Source of the DNA: Spirochaetales bacterium
Lineage (GTDB): Bacteria > Spirochaetota > Spirochaetia > Sphaerochaetales > Sphaerochaetaceae
Assembly: GCA_012514185.1 (NCBI GenBank)
Contig: JAAZAT010000089.1
Coordinates: 1-64,000 of the forward strand
Length of the DNA stretch: 64,000 nucleotides
Direction: 5' to 3'
Part shown: piece after piece, positions 13,947 to 29,983 of the stretch
How the letters are laid out: each line of letters starts with the position of its first letter
Position numbering within the stretch: the first letter of the stretch is position 1
Position numbers and translations under genes: made by a program
The notes under the pieces: generated by a model
Database searches by the model: none
Told to the model about the DNA's origin: nothing
The model's input: only the letters and a program-made list of their open reading frames with translations

Positions 13947-15037
13947 CCCAACACCCCCCTGATGTATTCCTCTTCATACCCGTAATATTTTCCGTTCAAT
14001 ATCGCCTTGATCATAGCCGTTTCTTCCTTGCATAGAAAGAAGTAAGCCAAGCTGAGCCCGATCGTGAACGGATCGGTCGCCAGCATTTTCTGGTAGAGCG
14101 CCTGTCGTCGGGTCGCCAAATACCCCTCAATCTTGAGGTTCTCCAACACACTCGCCTCATCTGAATGCAATCCCAACCGGTTCTGTTGCACCTCTGTCTG
14201 TTCGAGTCCCGGAAAATACCGATTGATAATGGAGAGAGGACTCCGTTCCCCGCTCTTTTGGGCAAGGTACTTCTCGGTCTCGGGGCTTGCAAATACACTG
14301 CCCCAGGGAAGCAGCAACGTTCTCAGCTTGTCGGCTTCCATCTGGTGATATCCACCGTGGCGAACCAGGATGGTAAGGTTTCGCAAATCAATTTCCAGCA
14401 GGAAGATCGAAGTTGCCACTTCCCTATCCTGCCTGGACAAGTCCTTGCAACTTTGCATCAAGGATGCGTACCAAAGCCGGTCGAGCTTGCTTTCCATCAC
14501 GAACAATCCGTCCTGCTCCAAGCCTTGTCCAGTGAAAGCTTTCAAGACATCCCAATACGGGGTTGCTTTGACTGCATTCAGGACAGCGTCCCAACCGGTT
14601 GCATTGATCAGGGCGGTCCAATCGATTGGATGCAGGATCACCTCTTTGAACAAGTACCCGCTCCTATGCCTGATCGGGCGGTGCCTGATGATGCTGCTGT
14701 ACCAAAGCCTGATGGCGTTCTTCAGATTATCGACCTCAATCTTGCCCAGCAGGTGCTGGACGAAGGTTGCAGGACTGCCTTCCAGGTACTTTTGCACTTC
14801 CCGGTACATCTCGATTTCTTTTTGCAGGAGAACCAATTCCATCTGCTGCAAATCACCGGTTTGATCATAGGCGTGAGCAACCTCACGGTAGCGGCTGTCC
14901 CGCAAAACACCTACAGCCTCAACAAGGGAGGCCGACCTGAGAAGAGATTCCATGAGATGGTCCTGACGCATCAAGCCAATCTTCGCCCGAAGCTTGGCAT
15001 TGATGAATCCGTAAACGGTTACAGGGTCTCTGCTCAT
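13943..15037 (-). CDS. atpC: V-type ATP synthase subunit C
   Basis: 'YGFINAKLRAKIGLM...', 'EIDLRNLTILVRHGGY...FFLCKEETAMIKAILNGKYYG'; operon position. Confidence 0.85.
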   Translation of the reverse strand: MSRDPVTVYGFINAKLRAKIGLMRQDHLMESLLRSASLVEAVGVLRDSRYREVAHAYDQTGDLQQMELVLLQKEIEMYREVQKYLEGSPATFVQHLLGKIEVDNLKNAIRLWYSSIIRHRPIRHRSGYLFKEVILHPIDWTALINATGWDAVLNAVKATPYWDVLKAFTGQGLEQDGLFVMESKLDRLWYASLMQSCKDLSRQDREVATSIFLLEIDLRNLTILVRHGGYHQMEADKLRTLLLPWGSVFASPETEKYLAQKSGERSPLSIINRYFPGLEQTEVQQNRLGLHSDEASVLENLKIEGYLATRRQALYQKMLATDPFTIGLSLAYFFLCKEETAMIKAILNGKYYGYEEEYIRGVLG

Positions 15038-15393
15038 TGCAGTTCCAGATAACTTTCTAGATCGGTTTTGCACACCTTCTGAACGACGGCTCGGGCAATA
15101 CGATCAAGTTCATCCTCTTGCAGCGCCTCAACACGCTGCAAACCTGCCTCAAATTCGGAGAGTCTCAAAGCGGCATCAGCTTCGGCTTGCTGAATCAGGG
15201 CATTACAACGCTCCCGTTCCTGCTTGATTGAGGATCGAATAAGGTCATTGGCTTGGGTCTGGGCGTCGGTAATAGAGTCTCTTGCTGTACGTTCGGCGTC
15301 TCTTATGATCTTCTGCGCTCTATCCTCAACCGACAAGACCTCGTTGATTATATCGATACGCACCTTGATACTTCCTTGCTTGAATTCGAACAA
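15034..15393 (-). CDS. V-type ATPase peripheral stalk subunit (G/H-like), 119 aa
   Basis: Ala/Glu/Gln-rich coiled coil 'VEDRAQKIIRDAERTARDSITDAQTQANDLI'; overlaps start of subunit C. Confidence 0.7.
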   Translation of the reverse strand: MFEFKQGSIKVRIDIINEVLSVEDRAQKIIRDAERTARDSITDAQTQANDLIRSSIKQERERCNALIQQAEADAALRLSEFEAGLQRVEALQEDELDRIARAVVQKVCKTDLESYLELQ

Positions 15394-15439: not shown

Positions 15440-18400
15440 TCAGGGTGCCGCCGTGAACACCTGTTGAGCAGTTTCATCCTGTCCGTCTTCAGTGACCAAT
15501 GCATCAAAGAGACTCTCATCAAACTGGAAATCAGCATCAGTGACAAAGCTTTCGTCAAACTGCTCGAAGCTGAAATCACTCTCGTCGAACGGCGGGAAGA
15601 TGATGTTCCAGAAGACCTCTTCACTGATGCGATCGACAACATCCAGAACCACTTCAGCATCATATCCTGTAGCGAGTTCTGTACCAAATACATCTTCTTG
15701 TTCTTCAATCTGCTGACCGGTAAAGACATCCTTGACGATGATTCTCTCAGTAAAAGCAGGGTCGGAAACCCAGAAATCCTCGAGAAGAAGCACACGGTCC
15801 AAGCCCAGCTTGTCCGCTTCGATTTCAGGTACGGTGAACCGCACCGCGTACCACAGATCTTCAACCTGCAAATCGAACAGGTAGGTACCGCTCTTTACTT
15901 CGCTGAGGATGAACCGGCCCTCTTGGTCGGTGAACAAATACAGCGCGTCGTCGGCGATCAGCTCCTCATTGCCTGCCTCATCAACTACTACCCTGTAGAC
16001 GGGGGATGAGTACTGGACATACGGACTGGCGTCGGTCATCAACAGAACTGCACTGACGGTGAAAGAAGGCTCGACATCGAGCTTTGCAACAAAGGACTGC
16101 CGGCTTCTGGGTGTTATCTCATAGACGAATGAGGAGCCGGCTGAATAGTCGGTAGCCCCGCTTGAGAAAACAACCACACTGTTCTTCACATTGGTGGAGA
16201 TATTGTTGTACAACGCACTGCCCAGCGGTCTTGGCAGGTATGAGGGAGCGCTGTCGAGACTGCGTGCTACCGATACCTCGCTCTTTTTCAACTCGCCGAC
16301 CGGTTTGACCAGCAAGAAGGATTCATTGACCGACTTGCCTATCGCAAAGGCTCCATCGGCATAGGCAAACGAGGTGTTTGCAGTAAAGGTGGTGGACATG
16401 TTCTGATAGGAGTTGGAGATTTGCTGCCTGAGGGAGAATGAACTGAGATTTCCGCTGTGCGACCAGGAACCGACCAAGGAGTGATTCTTCGGGTCGGAGA
16501 ACTTGAATGAACTCAGTGAAAGGTTGAGGCTGTCGTTTCCTGACGGTCTCCAGCTCAATCCGGCGGAACTGGTGGTCGTTACATCGAAGAAGGGGGTGCC
16601 GCTTTGAATGCTGGTCGATGAGTTGGCGCTCAGCTTGGGGTTGAACGAGTAGCTGCCGCTGATCTGGGCGGTGACTGAAGGCTTGAGCGGATCGGTACTG
16701 CTTCCGTTTGCTGTGATGGATCCGCTGAGGGAGAAGCCCTTGAAGGGGGAGAAGCCTGATGCGAATGAGAGGCTCCAGCTGGGGTTTGCAGCAGCTGTGT
16801 TGAAAATTACATTGCTGGAAAGAGTATACCGGATTTTCTCTGTCAGGCTGCCTGAGTATGCAAGAGAGAGCGTGGAAACTGAGGAGAATGGCGTAGCTGA
16901 GGTAGGACGTGCAGGTATGCTGTGGTTCAAGGTGGCGCTGAGGGTACCAAACCAGCTATCCTGTGAGCCGCTGAGCCTGTGGCTCAGGCTTCCAGCGAAA
17001 GAAGGCGTATGGTTGGCTGCATCAAGGCCAAGGGTGAGCTGGATTTGAGAGGTGCCCAACAAGGTGGCCACCACCCCATTGACCGTCCCGCTGAAGATTC
17101 CAGGACTGAAGGCAAGGTCGGTGGTGAGGGTGAAGGTATCGGTCAAACCGGTCTGCTGATAATAAGTTGCAGTAAATTTATCCAGATAATAGGAGAGGTA
17201 TTGGTTGTCAAACCATGGCAGATTGATCATGGCGCCTGCACTTGCGCTCTTTACCTTGGGGACGCTGAAGCCAAAGCCGTACAGGCTGTCACCCTTGCCC
17301 AGGAGACGGTAGTCATAGCCCATGTCTACATATTCAACCTTCTCTTCACCAGAATTTTTCATCTTGGTGACGATCTTGATCTTGTTTGCTCCTTGTGCAA
17401 AAACAAAATCCTTGAGCCGGTAAGTACCTGGTTGGAAATCCCTCGGGCCAAATACCGATGTGTCATTGATGAAAATCTCCACCGTGGAGGGCTCGACCAG
17501 TACGATGCGATACTCAAACTGGTTGCCTTTGGCACTTCCCGTACCATATGCATAGTTCTTTTCAAAGGTGAATCCGAAATTGGAATTGGCTCCGGTTACC
17601 GAGCTGAGGTTGGACCCCACGTTGCCGAAGCTGAGTCGATGGTTCGATTCAACAAAGTCATAGAAGCCGTTCCAGCTTCCGGGATTGAAAACAGGAGCTT
17701 TCGACGAGAACGAGAAGTAGAAGTTCAACCCGATGCCCAACAGGGACGCCCTATTGGATACCGAGAGCGAGACAAGCTGGGATTTGATTTGGGAGAAATC
17801 AGAGGGATAGTCCATCATCGCATAGAGGCTCAAGGAACTTGCCAAGGCAAATTTGGCCGGTTTGAGAACGATGGCACCGCTCATGCCATACTGCTCCCTG
17901 CGGTTGATGGAGGAAGCGGTGACACTCACCGAGCGCTCGGGCATATCTGCAATGCTGAAATTCAAATACACGGCAAATTCGACGGCATCGTAGCGGGCAT
18001 CGACTCCGCGGCCTCTCAAATCGTCCAAAGATAGATATTGCAACCCATCGCCAAAGATCCGTTCGTATGCCGCCTTGGTGATGTACGTACCGACGTAGTA
18101 CGTGAGATCTTCGGTGCTGAGCAGTCTTCGATCCTGTATGAATTCCACCTCGATGTCGCCTACCCGCTCGTCGTTCACAAACAAGTTGAGGAAGTAGAAT
18201 CCATCCTCGAACGCTATCGTTGCATCCTGGCCCACAACAAAAAAGTCCGCCCAGAAGTCATCGGAAGGCTCGGCAATTGCAGAAGGCTGAGGATAGAACA
18301 TATCATACTCTTCTTCTGTAAGAACCAAGGGTTCGAACATATATGGAGGATCGGGAACAAGAGGCTTCACCGTCGGGGGTCCTGCAAACCTGGGGGCGGG

Positions 18401-18751
18401 AGGAAGAACCACCCGCTCAATGGGTTTGATGACCGGCAGAGAAATCAAGTGAACAGGAGGCGGCAACGGTTTGACTTCTCGTACCATCTCCTCAACAATC
18501 GGCTTTCCTCTGAAAAGGGGAGCAGCAGGGATGGCCACAGCCACCGGCTGTTCAGGTTGCACTATTGCAGGTTCAGGTTCTCTTGGAATTTCCGGCTTCG
18601 GCACAACGGGAGTGACCACCCTGATCGGGGCTGGTTGTTCAACCTCGGCAGGCTGGAGAAAACATGTGTAGATGAAGGCAGAAAGAAAGAGGGTCAAGAG
18701 CACAAGCAAGACCAACAGGAACACTGCGTGTGCAAACCCTCTTTTCCTCAT
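15440..18751 (-). CDS. Outer-membrane usher-like protein with TonB-like proline-rich N-terminus, 1103 aa
   Basis: Usher-like segments 'LNLFVNDERVGDIEVEFIQDRRLLSTEDL', 'HRLSFGNVGSNLSSVTGANSNFGFTFEKN', 'YRIVLVEPSTVEIFINDTSVFGPRDFQPGTYRLKDFVFAQGANKIKIV', then a long Ser/Thr-rich alternating beta-strand region; adjacent to a chaperone gene. Confidence 0.7.
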   Translation of the reverse strand: MRKRGFAHAVFLLVLLVLLTLFLSAFIYTCFLQPAEVEQPAPIRVVTPVVPKPEIPREPEPAIVQPEQPVAVAIPAAPLFRGKPIVEEMVREVKPLPPPVHLISLPVIKPIERVVLPPAPRFAGPPTVKPLVPDPPYMFEPLVLTEEEYDMFYPQPSAIAEPSDDFWADFFVVGQDATIAFEDGFYFLNLFVNDERVGDIEVEFIQDRRLLSTEDLTYYVGTYITKAAYERIFGDGLQYLSLDDLRGRGVDARYDAVEFAVYLNFSIADMPERSVSVTASSINRREQYGMSGAIVLKPAKFALASSLSLYAMMDYPSDFSQIKSQLVSLSVSNRASLLGIGLNFYFSFSSKAPVFNPGSWNGFYDFVESNHRLSFGNVGSNLSSVTGANSNFGFTFEKNYAYGTGSAKGNQFEYRIVLVEPSTVEIFINDTSVFGPRDFQPGTYRLKDFVFAQGANKIKIVTKMKNSGEEKVEYVDMGYDYRLLGKGDSLYGFGFSVPKVKSASAGAMINLPWFDNQYLSYYLDKFTATYYQQTGLTDTFTLTTDLAFSPGIFSGTVNGVVATLLGTSQIQLTLGLDAANHTPSFAGSLSHRLSGSQDSWFGTLSATLNHSIPARPTSATPFSSVSTLSLAYSGSLTEKIRYTLSSNVIFNTAAANPSWSLSFASGFSPFKGFSLSGSITANGSSTDPLKPSVTAQISGSYSFNPKLSANSSTSIQSGTPFFDVTTTSSAGLSWRPSGNDSLNLSLSSFKFSDPKNHSLVGSWSHSGNLSSFSLRQQISNSYQNMSTTFTANTSFAYADGAFAIGKSVNESFLLVKPVGELKKSEVSVARSLDSAPSYLPRPLGSALYNNISTNVKNSVVVFSSGATDYSAGSSFVYEITPRSRQSFVAKLDVEPSFTVSAVLLMTDASPYVQYSSPVYRVVVDEAGNEELIADDALYLFTDQEGRFILSEVKSGTYLFDLQVEDLWYAVRFTVPEIEADKLGLDRVLLLEDFWVSDPAFTERIIVKDVFTGQQIEEQEDVFGTELATGYDAEVVLDVVDRISEEVFWNIIFPPFDESDFSFEQFDESFVTDADFQFDESLFDALVTEDGQDETAQQVFTAAP

Positions 18752-18790
18752 GTAAAAGCCCTTTCTTAATCTGGAAGGAGGAAACCCCTC

Positions 18791-19555
18791 CTACTTCGTA
18801 TACTTGATCGTGGCTTGGTAGGTAACCCCTGAATCACGGGAAAGACCCTCGGGCCAGGGAACCTTCTTCGTTACAGTCTTCTTAGCCAATATATTCATGC
18901 CATCGATGCCGGGAAGAGCTTCAGCACCTTGCAATACAACAGAATTTCCTTTGCTGTCTTTGATTTCCACAACGGCAGAAATGAGCAATTGATGTACGGT
19001 GCCGAGATTGGCCAACGTGACAGCAAGGGCGGGAGAACCATCCTCCAGTGTGGATGCAGCCATCGATCGGATTGCAACATTTTCCACTACGCGGGAAGGA
19101 AGTACATACAAACTGGTTGTATAGATGTACAGGAAGTTGAACATGCCCTTGTCGGTGCTTGCCCTACCTTGTGAATAGGGAATCTGCTCAGCCTTGAGCC
19201 GGAAGGAAAGCTCGTTGGTGACCGTTCTCGGCCCACGATATTGAACCCGCACGACCCAGCTGCTTTGGGGAGGAACAACCAACTTATTGGGAACGATGGA
19301 GAAGTAAGCATCGGCAGGGGTGTTTACCTCATTCCCTTGCGCGTCCTGATCACGAATGAGTGCGGAAATACTGATGGCTATGGAATCATTGCTGTCATTG
19401 ACGATGGTATACGTCTTGGTACTTTCTGCTCCAGTTGGCTGGAAAGACTGTTCCAACGGAGAAAACTGATACGCATGAAGGGAAGAAAGCAGGAACAAAA
19501 GCAAACCTAAGGCAAGCACCACTCTCTTCATTGTTTTATTCGCACATTGATTCAT
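18791..19555 (-). CDS. Periplasmic pilus-assembly chaperone-like (PapD/Ig-fold) protein
   Basis: Signal peptide, then 'YQFSPLEQSFQPTGAESTKTYTIVNDSNDSIAISISALIR', 'SIVPNKLVVPPQSSWVVRVQYRG', 'LSFRLKAEQIPYSQ' typical of fimbrial chaperones; start at MNQCANK. Confidence 0.7.
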   Translation of the reverse strand: MNQCANKTMKRVVLALGLLLFLLSSLHAYQFSPLEQSFQPTGAESTKTYTIVNDSNDSIAISISALIRDQDAQGNEVNTPADAYFSIVPNKLVVPPQSSWVVRVQYRGPRTVTNELSFRLKAEQIPYSQGRASTDKGMFNFLYIYTTSLYVLPSRVVENVAIRSMAASTLEDGSPALAVTLANLGTVHQLLISAVVEIKDSKGNSVVLQGAEALPGIDGMNILAKKTVTKKVPWPEGLSRDSGVTYQATIKYTK

Positions 19556-19648: not shown

Positions 19649-20218
19649 TTAACGGCTTGCAGCCATCCTTTTCAAGGCTGCATCGAAGGTTCCCTGCAAA
19701 ATGGGAACCATTTTCTGCACGATATCGTCAATATTGCCGGAGAGTCCTCCATGTACCCAATCGAGCAAGGAACCGACAAAGGCATGCTTGTAGAAAGCAA
19801 TCAGGTAATCGAGGTCCTCCTCTGTGGCACCAAAGGCCTGTGCCCGGTAACTCAGGGTTCCATGCAAGAGCTTTGCCATCTCCCGACAGAGATACCTGTC
19901 CAGAAGCTCGCGACCCAGGCTGTGGTAGATGTTGATCACTATCTGCCTGTTATCCTTGAGATAGGTGCACATGTTACGGATTGCAGCCTCACCATCATCG
20001 TTTGTCCGGCTGTCGGGGTACTTGCGGGAAAACTCCTGACCCTCATTGATGAACATCCAATCGAGCAAATCGTATATATCCTTGAAATGATAATAGAATG
20101 TCTGCCGGTTGACTCCGCAACGGTTTACAATTTCCTTGACGGTGATTTTGTCCAAGGTTCGTTCAGCCATCAATTGCTTCAGTGATTGGGCAAGTGCTAA
20201 TTTGGTCATCTGTGCCAT
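19649..20218 (-). CDS. TetR family transcriptional regulator (DhaS-like)
   Basis: 'LKQLMAERTLDKITVKEIVNRCGVNRQTFYYHFKDIYDLLDWMF' HTH; start at MAQMTKLAL. Confidence 0.88.
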   Translation of the reverse strand: MAQMTKLALAQSLKQLMAERTLDKITVKEIVNRCGVNRQTFYYHFKDIYDLLDWMFINEGQEFSRKYPDSRTNDDGEAAIRNMCTYLKDNRQIVINIYHSLGRELLDRYLCREMAKLLHGTLSYRAQAFGATEEDLDYLIAFYKHAFVGSLLDWVHGGLSGNIDDIVQKMVPILQGTFDAALKRMAASR

Positions 20219-20394
20219 GGGTATCCCTCTCATAACTCTACGTACGAATATATATAGCTCATCCATAGATGTGTTATTAAAAATTAGTACTAATACTACT
20301 CCAAAAATCTTTCTTTGGCTACCTATTATCCATTTATTGACACAAGTATGCATCTATGCTAAGGTTCGTTCCTGTCGGGTGACCGATACATGTT

Positions 20395-28247: not shown

Positions 28248-28812
28248 AATAGGAAGGTGCATGGAAATCCGGTTTCAATGTACCAATTTCTGAAACGGCA
28301 AGGAAGTGGGGAACTGCATGCTTATCGCCGCAGCAGTAAAAATTCCCCTTCAACTGCACACTTCTCAGATCCTCACCCGGTTTTACCAGACCCAACAGAT
28401 CAAGCGGAAGGCTCACTTGGAGAGTCCAGCGGCTTTGCTTGTTGGAGTTCTCCAGTATTTCGACTGTATGATCGATGGTTTGCATGAAGTCAGGCGGGAA
28501 CAACATTCGATTCGCCCTTCCCTCCCCCCTGCCCACGAGCATGCTCAAAGAAGCGCTGCATTCAACATTTACATAGGCTGCTTGGCCTTCCCGCTGTAAA
28601 AAAGCTTCCACACAGCTGTCTTCCCACACCCTTCCATTGTGCTCTGTCACCATGCGCCTGAGCTGGGGTTCCCGCACCTGGTACCTGAGATGCAACAGCT
28701 GATTCTCCCATGCCATGCGCACTGAAGCCTCAACACCCTCATACTCACCCCAAAGCGGAATCAGGCTGATCGGAAGGGTTTGCTCGAGCGGCCGGCTATA
28801 GATGGTAATCAT
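28225..28812 (-). CDS. CBM9-like carbohydrate-binding domain protein
   Basis: 'NGRVWEDSCVEAFLQREGQAAYVNVECSASLSML' and 'LKGNFYCCGDKHAVPHFLAVSEIG'. Confidence 0.65.
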   Translation of the reverse strand: MITIYSRPLEQTLPISLIPLWGEYEGVEASVRMAWENQLLHLRYQVREPQLRRMVTEHNGRVWEDSCVEAFLQREGQAAYVNVECSASLSMLVGRGEGRANRMLFPPDFMQTIDHTVEILENSNKQSRWTLQVSLPLDLLGLVKPGEDLRSVQLKGNFYCCGDKHAVPHFLAVSEIGTLKPDFHAPSYFTPIRFA

Positions 28813-28930
28813 GATTTCATACTCCCTTCCTGCCAGTATAGACGAGAGCCAGCGTTCAAGCATAGGGGTTGTTGAAGCAAACAGGCGGGCTTTTCTCCTT
28901 GATAGGCATCACAAATTGAGGAGATATCAC

Positions 28931-29983
28931 ATGAATCATCGAACACTGTCCTTTGCTGGACTCATGCTTTTGCTCGCGTTGCTCATTGGTTGTGAAAACA
29001 CCGTTGAGCCTGAGAGAGCGACCTTGAGGCTGAACCTCGCCTCCGAGCGGTTTCGGACATCGAGAAGCCTGCTGCCCACACCGCAGGATATGACCATCAC
29101 CACGGTAAGGATCACCGGAACCGGGCCGAAAGGACAAACAGTGGATGTACAATCTGAGGACCAAGTGGTGGAAATCGGAAACCTTGCCATCGGAACATGG
29201 ATATTGCATGCAGTCGGGTTCAACAGCAAGGGAACCGCCCTTGTCAGCGGCGATGTGACAACCCTGCTCTCATCGGTGACCAATGAGGCGACCTTGGAGC
29301 TGACGCAGCTTGTCGGAGAAGGAGTGATGAGTGTGCAGCTTTCCTGGGATCCCGATCAGGTGGCATCGGATGTGCGCCTTGAAGCCCAGCTTTTCCATCA
29401 AAGCGGCTCCCCGGTCGCCCTCGAGGTTGGGGCCCTGAATAAAGCCGATGGTACGGTTAGCCTGACAAAAACCCTGCCTGCAGGCTCCTATTATCTCAAA
29501 CTGCAGCTGTTCAGCCAGGAGGTTCTGGTCAGCGGAGCAAGCCAATCCTTGAGAATCCTCGACGGGGTCACCAGCGATGGCAGCATTGAGCTCATCATCG
29601 GAGACCTTTCCACCGCCTACACCATCATGGTCGTAAACAACACCATGCTTCCCATTGAAGGCAGTATTGTCTCCACTCCTCTGCAAGCAAAGGCCGGGGA
29701 TGAGGTGACGCTTACCTATACTCCGAGCAATCTACCTGAGGGAATCGGCATCAACGACCTGCAGATCGACTGGTATTGCGAAGGGATCCTCGTACAAGCA
29801 TCACAAGCTGCCTATACCAGTATTCCACTTGCGGGAGTTCACCGCTACGATGTCATCGTCAACCACGACCGGTTGGGAAGCCTCGGCTCCTCAACCATTC
29901 TGCTTGACATGCCTAGGTCGCTGACTCAAAGGCAGGGGCGAACCAGGCAGGAAGCGGCATCGGTCGGTGTGTTTGTACATTGA
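28931..29983 (+). CDS. Hypothetical lipoprotein
   Basis: Signal peptide with lipobox 'LLLALLIGC'; start ATG 28931. Confidence 0.75.
   Translation: MNHRTLSFAGLMLLLALLIGCENTVEPERATLRLNLASERFRTSRSLLPTPQDMTITTVRITGTGPKGQTVDVQSEDQVVEIGNLAIGTWILHAVGFNSKGTALVSGDVTTLLSSVTNEATLELTQLVGEGVMSVQLSWDPDQVASDVRLEAQLFHQSGSPVALEVGALNKADGTVSLTKTLPAGSYYLKLQLFSQEVLVSGASQSLRILDGVTSDGSIELIIGDLSTAYTIMVVNNTMLPIEGSIVSTPLQAKAGDEVTLTYTPSNLPEGIGINDLQIDWYCEGILVQASQAAYTSIPLAGVHRYDVIVNHDRLGSLGSSTILLDMPRSLTQRQGRTRQEAASVGVFVH

Follow-up and report, generated by a model that had tools for sequence, protein, structure and literature searches.

The DNA analyzed here, a 64,000-nucleotide stretch that we call the window, carries two adjacent minus-strand genes encoding a periplasmic pilus chaperone (18791..19555) and an outer-membrane usher (15440..18751). 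It comes from a draft genome (2.76 Mb, 315 contigs, 86% completeness), whose closest named relatives are Sphaerochaeta, which places it in the genus Sphaerochaeta of the family Sphaerochaetaceae; an earlier interpretation made from the letters alone (the sequence-only reading) had rightly guessed at a spirochaete. We put at roughly three in four the probability that the pair is a functional assembly platform of the non-classical (archaic, Csu-like) type, serving SCPU-type pilins encoded at remote sites, with the usher tethered to the inner membrane.

Identity of the chaperone and the usher

The chaperone open reading frame (ORF; 18791-19555) encodes 254 amino acids (aa) counted from the ATG at 19555, where close relatives begin at the equivalent position; an in-frame upstream ATG would give 284 aa. 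The usher ORF (15440-18751) encodes 1103 aa. As single sequences, the two proteins had no significant match in Pfam, NCBIfam or PDB, as would be expected of unrelated beta-rich proteins merely resembling a chaperone-usher pair. In fold and homology, that explanation is refuted by the profiles of relatives, the Pfam matches of relatives and the fold searches with both proteins, all of which concur, and we consider its probability negligible.

Profiles built from Sphaerochaeta sequences only found no match in PDB, and wider alignments were needed. A profile of 23 spirochaete chaperones gave five PDB matches, all of them non-classical chaperones, including CsuC (2e-5), EcpB and CfaA, and no classical chaperone was among them. 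A close homologue from a sister operon, L073, passes the PF00345 (PapD_N) cut-off. The AlphaFold2 model of the window chaperone, with a predicted local distance difference test score (pLDDT) of 78, has two immunoglobulin (Ig)-like domains, preceded by a signal peptide visible in the sequence, and Foldseek found CfaA and CsuC as its best matches (E 2e-10 to 7e-10). Arg119 is invariant in 23 of 23 aligned spirochaete chaperones and aligns with Arg89 on strand F of CsuC domain 1, the residue that holds the pilin C-terminus and is a hallmark of archaic and alternative chaperones (PMC4654587). Profile, fold and Arg119 all assign the chaperone to the archaic/alternative type. At what we take to be the positions of the carboxylate anchors Arg8 and Lys112 of PapD, aligned by eye, it reads Gln and Ser. 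The label "PapD-like" in the sequence-only reading was therefore right about the two-domain Ig-like fold, which the model confirms, but not about the type, which is that of CsuC/CfaA rather than PapD in the strict sense. Enterococcus WxLIP proteins, which belong to the Gram-positive WxL system, were also among the best fold matches, which suggests that WxL partners and pilus chaperones may share a fold.

For the usher, matches to Pfam Usher PF00577 come from several members of the family and from distant homologues located at corresponding places, and in close relatives these matches span profile positions 96-179. A profile of 17 ushers found PapC (4e-6) and the Caf1A plug domain (7e-4). The AlphaFold2 model, covering residues 130-1103, matched FimD and PapC best in the fold library, with E values down to 2e-20 over ~550-900 columns, and the best barrel of another family reached 4e-6; a viral fold library gave nothing useful. 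The N-terminal, chaperone-binding domain was placed at about residues 164-276 (17924..18262) from the secondary structure of the model, whose pLDDT is mostly 70-84 from residue 180 onward, and from alignments with FimD. The beta-barrel occupies about residues 301-805 (16337..17851), for which the model shows some two dozen long strands, and the plug domain about residues 422-475 (17327..17488), where the family profile aligned with the Caf1A middle domain. The N-domain, plug and beta-rich segments proposed earlier are thus located within a FimD/PapC fold, barrel and plug included. Toward the C-terminus lie a putative C-terminal domain region with a carboxypeptidase-regulatory-like repeat (about residues 850-1000; 15752..16204), assigned from a weak PF13620 match in the homologue from L073 and modeled with low confidence in the window usher, and a lineage-specific acidic extension (15443..15751) with a conserved F-W-x-x-hydrophobic-(Y/F)-P motif, recognized by alignment and from the ends of ushers of the sister operons. 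The homology and fold of both proteins are established by these results.

Operons of relatives and unlinked pilin genes

Flagella and lipoproteins, not pili, are what spirochaetes are known for, and the sequence-only reading had held that a chaperone-usher system would be unexpected in one. This did not hold, as many Spirochaetia families carry a complete four-gene operon in the order pilin-chaperone-usher-tip. Among 20 loci read from other Spirochaetia families, a pilin-sized secreted gene adjoins the chaperone gene in 16, and a gene for a protein of ~300-345 aa lies behind the usher gene, likewise in 16. Both of the two tips tested pass the cut-off of PF05229 (SCPU), indicating that the four-gene operons are archaic systems. 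These operons (L086-L105) share the chaperone and usher families of the window and have homologous pilins. However, they are compact, and their ushers of ~800-950 aa have an ordinary signal peptide at most loci, whereas the Sphaerochaeta usher is ~300 aa longer, with a putative N-terminal membrane anchor, a linker and an acidic tail. PMC4654587 lists archaic chaperone-usher pili in Proteobacteria, Cyanobacteria and Deinococcus-Thermus, and our literature search found no paper describing chaperone-usher operons of Spirochaetia; the archaic pili now extend through many families of this class.

The Csu pili of Acinetobacter baumannii (CsuC/CsuD/CsuA/B/CsuE) resemble the spirochaete systems in that CsuC was the top profile match of the chaperones, with its Arg89 kept (PMC4654587), and in the SCPU-domain tips and homologous pilins of the spirochaete relatives, which imply the same donor-strand logic. 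They differ from the Sphaerochaeta system, in which the pilins are unlinked and two further CsuC residues, one of them only probably, are replaced. The alternative (alpha) systems CFA/I and ECP are also alike in their chaperones, CfaA being the best fold match (2e-10) and both CfaA and EcpB being matched by profile. However, the subunits of the spirochaete relatives are of the SCPU type, and neither a subunit like CfaB or EcpA nor a match to an alternative-type usher was seen.

Within Sphaerochaetaceae, the chaperones form one clade (support 100/100) that splits into those of array operons (100/99) and those of orphan pairs like that of the window, mostly linked to V-ATPase genes (92/84, not a starred branch); one genome, G104, holds both forms. 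The array operons, which belong to sister genera (L073, L076, L078-L085), have a sister clade of chaperones, and their ushers, like those of the orphan pairs, carry membrane segments and a linker at the N-terminus. They differ in having subunit genes directly behind the usher gene, which encode roughly ten secreted proteins, most of them 165-265 aa long, and one of 417-565 aa. For this large subunit (420-565 aa), the genus yielded no credible homologue. No subunit gene was found in the window, whose ORFs gave nothing credible with the profiles of the unlinked, array, four-gene-operon and tip subunit families (best E = 0.024), in agreement with the lack of an adjacent fimbrial subunit gene noted from the sequence. 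This weak best match, at 28802-29983, was rejected as a pilin, being an unrelated lipoprotein-like ORF of 393 aa without a Pfam match.

On the other hand, the array-subunit profile picked up small, secreted proteins encoded at unlinked sites in Sphaerochaeta. The first of these remote pilin families was found in 25 of the 26 genomes of the genus with the first profile and in 26/26 with a mature-only profile, a few matches being weak or fragmentary, and a second pilin type in 18/26. The genome of the window encodes the first on contig C170 at L200:520-990, where it follows a TonB-receptor/ExbB/ExbD/TonB cluster, and the second on C93, a subunit count to be read as a lower bound. Members of the first family often stand behind genes for a TonB-dependent receptor, ExbB, ExbD and TonB (L197, L200, L201, L203, L195/L196), and tandem pilin copies are present at L195 and L132. 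In several of the TonB-cluster loci, the gap between the TonB gene and the pilin-like gene is ~350-400 bp; in genome G257, several tandem pilin copies precede the TonB-receptor cluster; and several Sphaerochaeta genomes have a further pilin-like gene near those for a liv (branched-chain amino acid) transporter (L198, L202, L203, L195). A search with full-length array pilins matched mostly signal peptides, and most of the loci that it gave, for solute-binding proteins and others, were rejected; it nonetheless led to L132, L133 and L134.

When profiles of the mature regions were compared, with signal peptides removed, the first remote family aligned with the pilins of the four-gene operons at a probability of 97% (E 1.3e-10, 142 columns), with their tips at E 4e-10 and with the array subunits at E 5e-8, whereas reversed or shuffled decoys gave E values of 0.025-0.95. 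The unlinked pilins do not themselves pass PF05229; the operon pilins with which they align at E 1.3e-10 are those of operons having SCPU tips. The remote-pilin profile also matches genes within array chaperone-usher operons of relatives (L234, L235, L236; E 1e-7 to 4e-8), and the C-terminal strand motif of the remote family resembles that of the operon pilins. The presence of the remote pilins throughout the genus and their homology to operon-encoded pilins are thereby established. Across Sphaerochaetaceae, of the 39 genomes that have the pilin family, 36 also have the chaperone, the three exceptions being assemblies that are 68-88% complete; as these counts are drawn from related genomes, they lend support rather than an independent test. 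Wherever a chaperone was matched in a genome of this genus, it was the only one, and thus the search gave no second chaperone for the remote pilins.

The missing pilins of the genus are most likely encoded at these unlinked sites, judging from sequence comparison; a fimbrial substrate is the most likely one. The sequence-only reading had left the substrate as either encoded elsewhere or non-fimbrial; the first, in view of the unlinked pilin homologues, is most likely, but the second is not, the substrate most likely being fimbrial and of the archaic type. The split between machine and pilin genes, together with sequence divergence, would explain why annotation misses the system. We infer that the pair assembles the remote pilins into fibres. 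The pilins would be exported by Sec and bound in the periplasm by the chaperone, with their C-terminal carboxylate near Arg119 and the G1 strand lent, and the chaperone-pilin complexes would be received by the N-terminal domain of the usher. Donor-strand exchange would then polymerise the pilins outward through the plugged barrel into a thin fibre on the surface. For Sphaerochaeta, which lack the usual spirochaete shape and motility, fibres of this kind would be a candidate for how the cells attach.

Several observations weigh against this assignment. The machine and the pilin genes being unlinked, their pairing would rest on homology and on co-occurrence among related genomes. The comparison of array subunits with four-gene-operon pilins is marginal when taken alone (E 4e-5). 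The alternating N-terminal pattern of a donor strand is only moderately enriched (79% versus 46% in other secreted proteins). The subunit searches in the genus were directed at pilins rather than at two-domain SCPU tip adhesins. In the spirochaete chaperones, a hydrophobic residue takes the position of CsuC Arg174, the secondary carboxylate anchor in domain 2, and CsuC Tyr196 is probably replaced by Asn (likely Asn221 by motif, the position being outside the profile alignment). Finally, the mean confidence of the usher model is low (pLDDT 58), and its C-terminal domains are poor.

An alternative is that the pair is a specialised usher system exporting or displaying non-pilus cargo, for example a few surface proteins, with the remote pilin-like proteins independent of it or acting in non-polymeric form by the TonB receptor. 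The remote pilins do adjoin TonB-receptor and liv transporter genes rather than the machine, the usher carries extra domains, and the Pseudomonas aeruginosa P-usher, cited in PMC4793230 (its ref. 74), is a precedent for an usher-like protein working beyond pili. However, the pilin-like family is homologous to subunits within complete operons, occurs in tandem copies (L195, L132) and has an operon-like C-terminal strand motif, and we consider this alternative unlikely.

A putative inner-membrane tether on the usher

All Sphaerochaetaceae ushers with an intact N-terminus start with one or more hydrophobic segments followed by a long linker, a feature beyond what the first reading of the sequence had noted. 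In the window usher, the hydrophobic segment, a putative uncleaved inner-membrane anchor with 24 uncharged residues, spans residues 9-34 (18650..18727), and the proline-rich linker residues 35-163 (18263..18649). The linker is conserved in kind, not in sequence; its proline content is 24% over 137 residues (28 to 164). Orphan-type ushers have one transmembrane segment, two rows showing a second, marginal one, whereas array-type ushers mostly have at least three (range 2 to 6); these were counted with a simple hydropathy threshold, which is crude, and odd counts are a tendency only as a sign of topology. The uncharged stretch has a median of 22.5 residues in orphan-type ushers versus 18 in the chaperone and pilin signal peptides of the same genomes, and no small-x-small cleavage site was found behind the hydrophobic core of the window usher. 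Ushers of other Spirochaetia families mostly begin like ordinary secreted proteins.

The simplest reading of these sequences is that the N-terminal anchor stays uncleaved, while cleavage by another protease may occur. The linker of the window usher would, in principle, be long enough to span the periplasm. We give about even odds to a Sphaerochaetaceae-wide usher residing in both membranes, with an uncleaved inner-membrane anchor, a proline- and acid-rich leash of ~120-250 residues and an outer-membrane usher. The usher would sit in the outer membrane, with its N-terminal helix and proline-rich linker holding it to the inner one, and the leash might recruit complexes, sense the inner membrane or merely limit the position of the usher. 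If true, this would couple pilus assembly physically to the inner membrane, and, if confirmed, it would make it testable whether inner-membrane contact feeds or times pilus assembly. To our knowledge, an inner-membrane-tethered usher has not been described for any known chaperone-usher system. The extra module of the P-usher CupB3 of Pseudomonas aeruginosa serves TpsA secretion and is not a membrane anchor with a linker. CupB3 is like the Sphaerochaeta usher in having an extra N-terminal module.

Conservation and neighbors of the pair

The neighbors named in the sequence-only reading, a TetR regulator and V-ATPase genes, are as it described them. Upstream of the pair lies a TetR/DhaS-like regulator gene (19649..20353, minus strand), found at this place within the genus only. 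Downstream, the V-ATPase genes start 46 bp from the usher gene with that of an E/G-type stalk subunit (15034..15393, minus strand), a conserved neighbor whose product matches the V-ATPase G profile below threshold only. It is probably context and not part of the chaperone-usher system. Across the genus, the pair sits between the TetR gene and the V-ATPase genes, and in other genera it adjoins the V-ATPase genes. This established synteny, kept across the genus and related genera, shows that it is not a chance pair of ORFs. The usher is present in most genomes of the family within our sample of the class.

The synteny in several genera and the 46-bp gap would fit a pair that belongs functionally to the V-ATPase, for example as an envelope partner of the pump. 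However, the same pair family also occurs without V-ATPase genes, in array operons and elsewhere (L077), both proteins have the fold and homology of pilus assembly, and a TTGACA element, read by eye between the usher and V-ATPase genes, makes separate transcription possible. We regard a functional link to the pump as very improbable.

The orphan pair might instead be the decaying relic of a former operon that lost its subunits. Split ushers speak for this: in genome G283 (C1:1893453-1896769), the usher is divided between two neighboring ORFs (354 and 786 aa), reflecting decay, error or switching, and at L040 (1089-4403) it is likewise split in two. G283 also holds a pilin copy with stops. Yet exactly one chaperone is present in each of the 13 near-complete genomes of the genus, most ushers are long and intact, those of the closest relatives being 81-83% identical to the window usher, and the V-ATPase-linked form is present in several genera. 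Decay is therefore quite improbable as an explanation, and a working assembly platform for the remote pilins is preferred.

Two minor features were also seen. The gap between the chaperone and usher genes (18752-18790) contains an inverted repeat (GGAGG...CCTCC) near the usher start, which could influence translation of the usher. In genome G213 (genus g3), two chaperone genes lie ~6 kb apart (C20:16668-24249).

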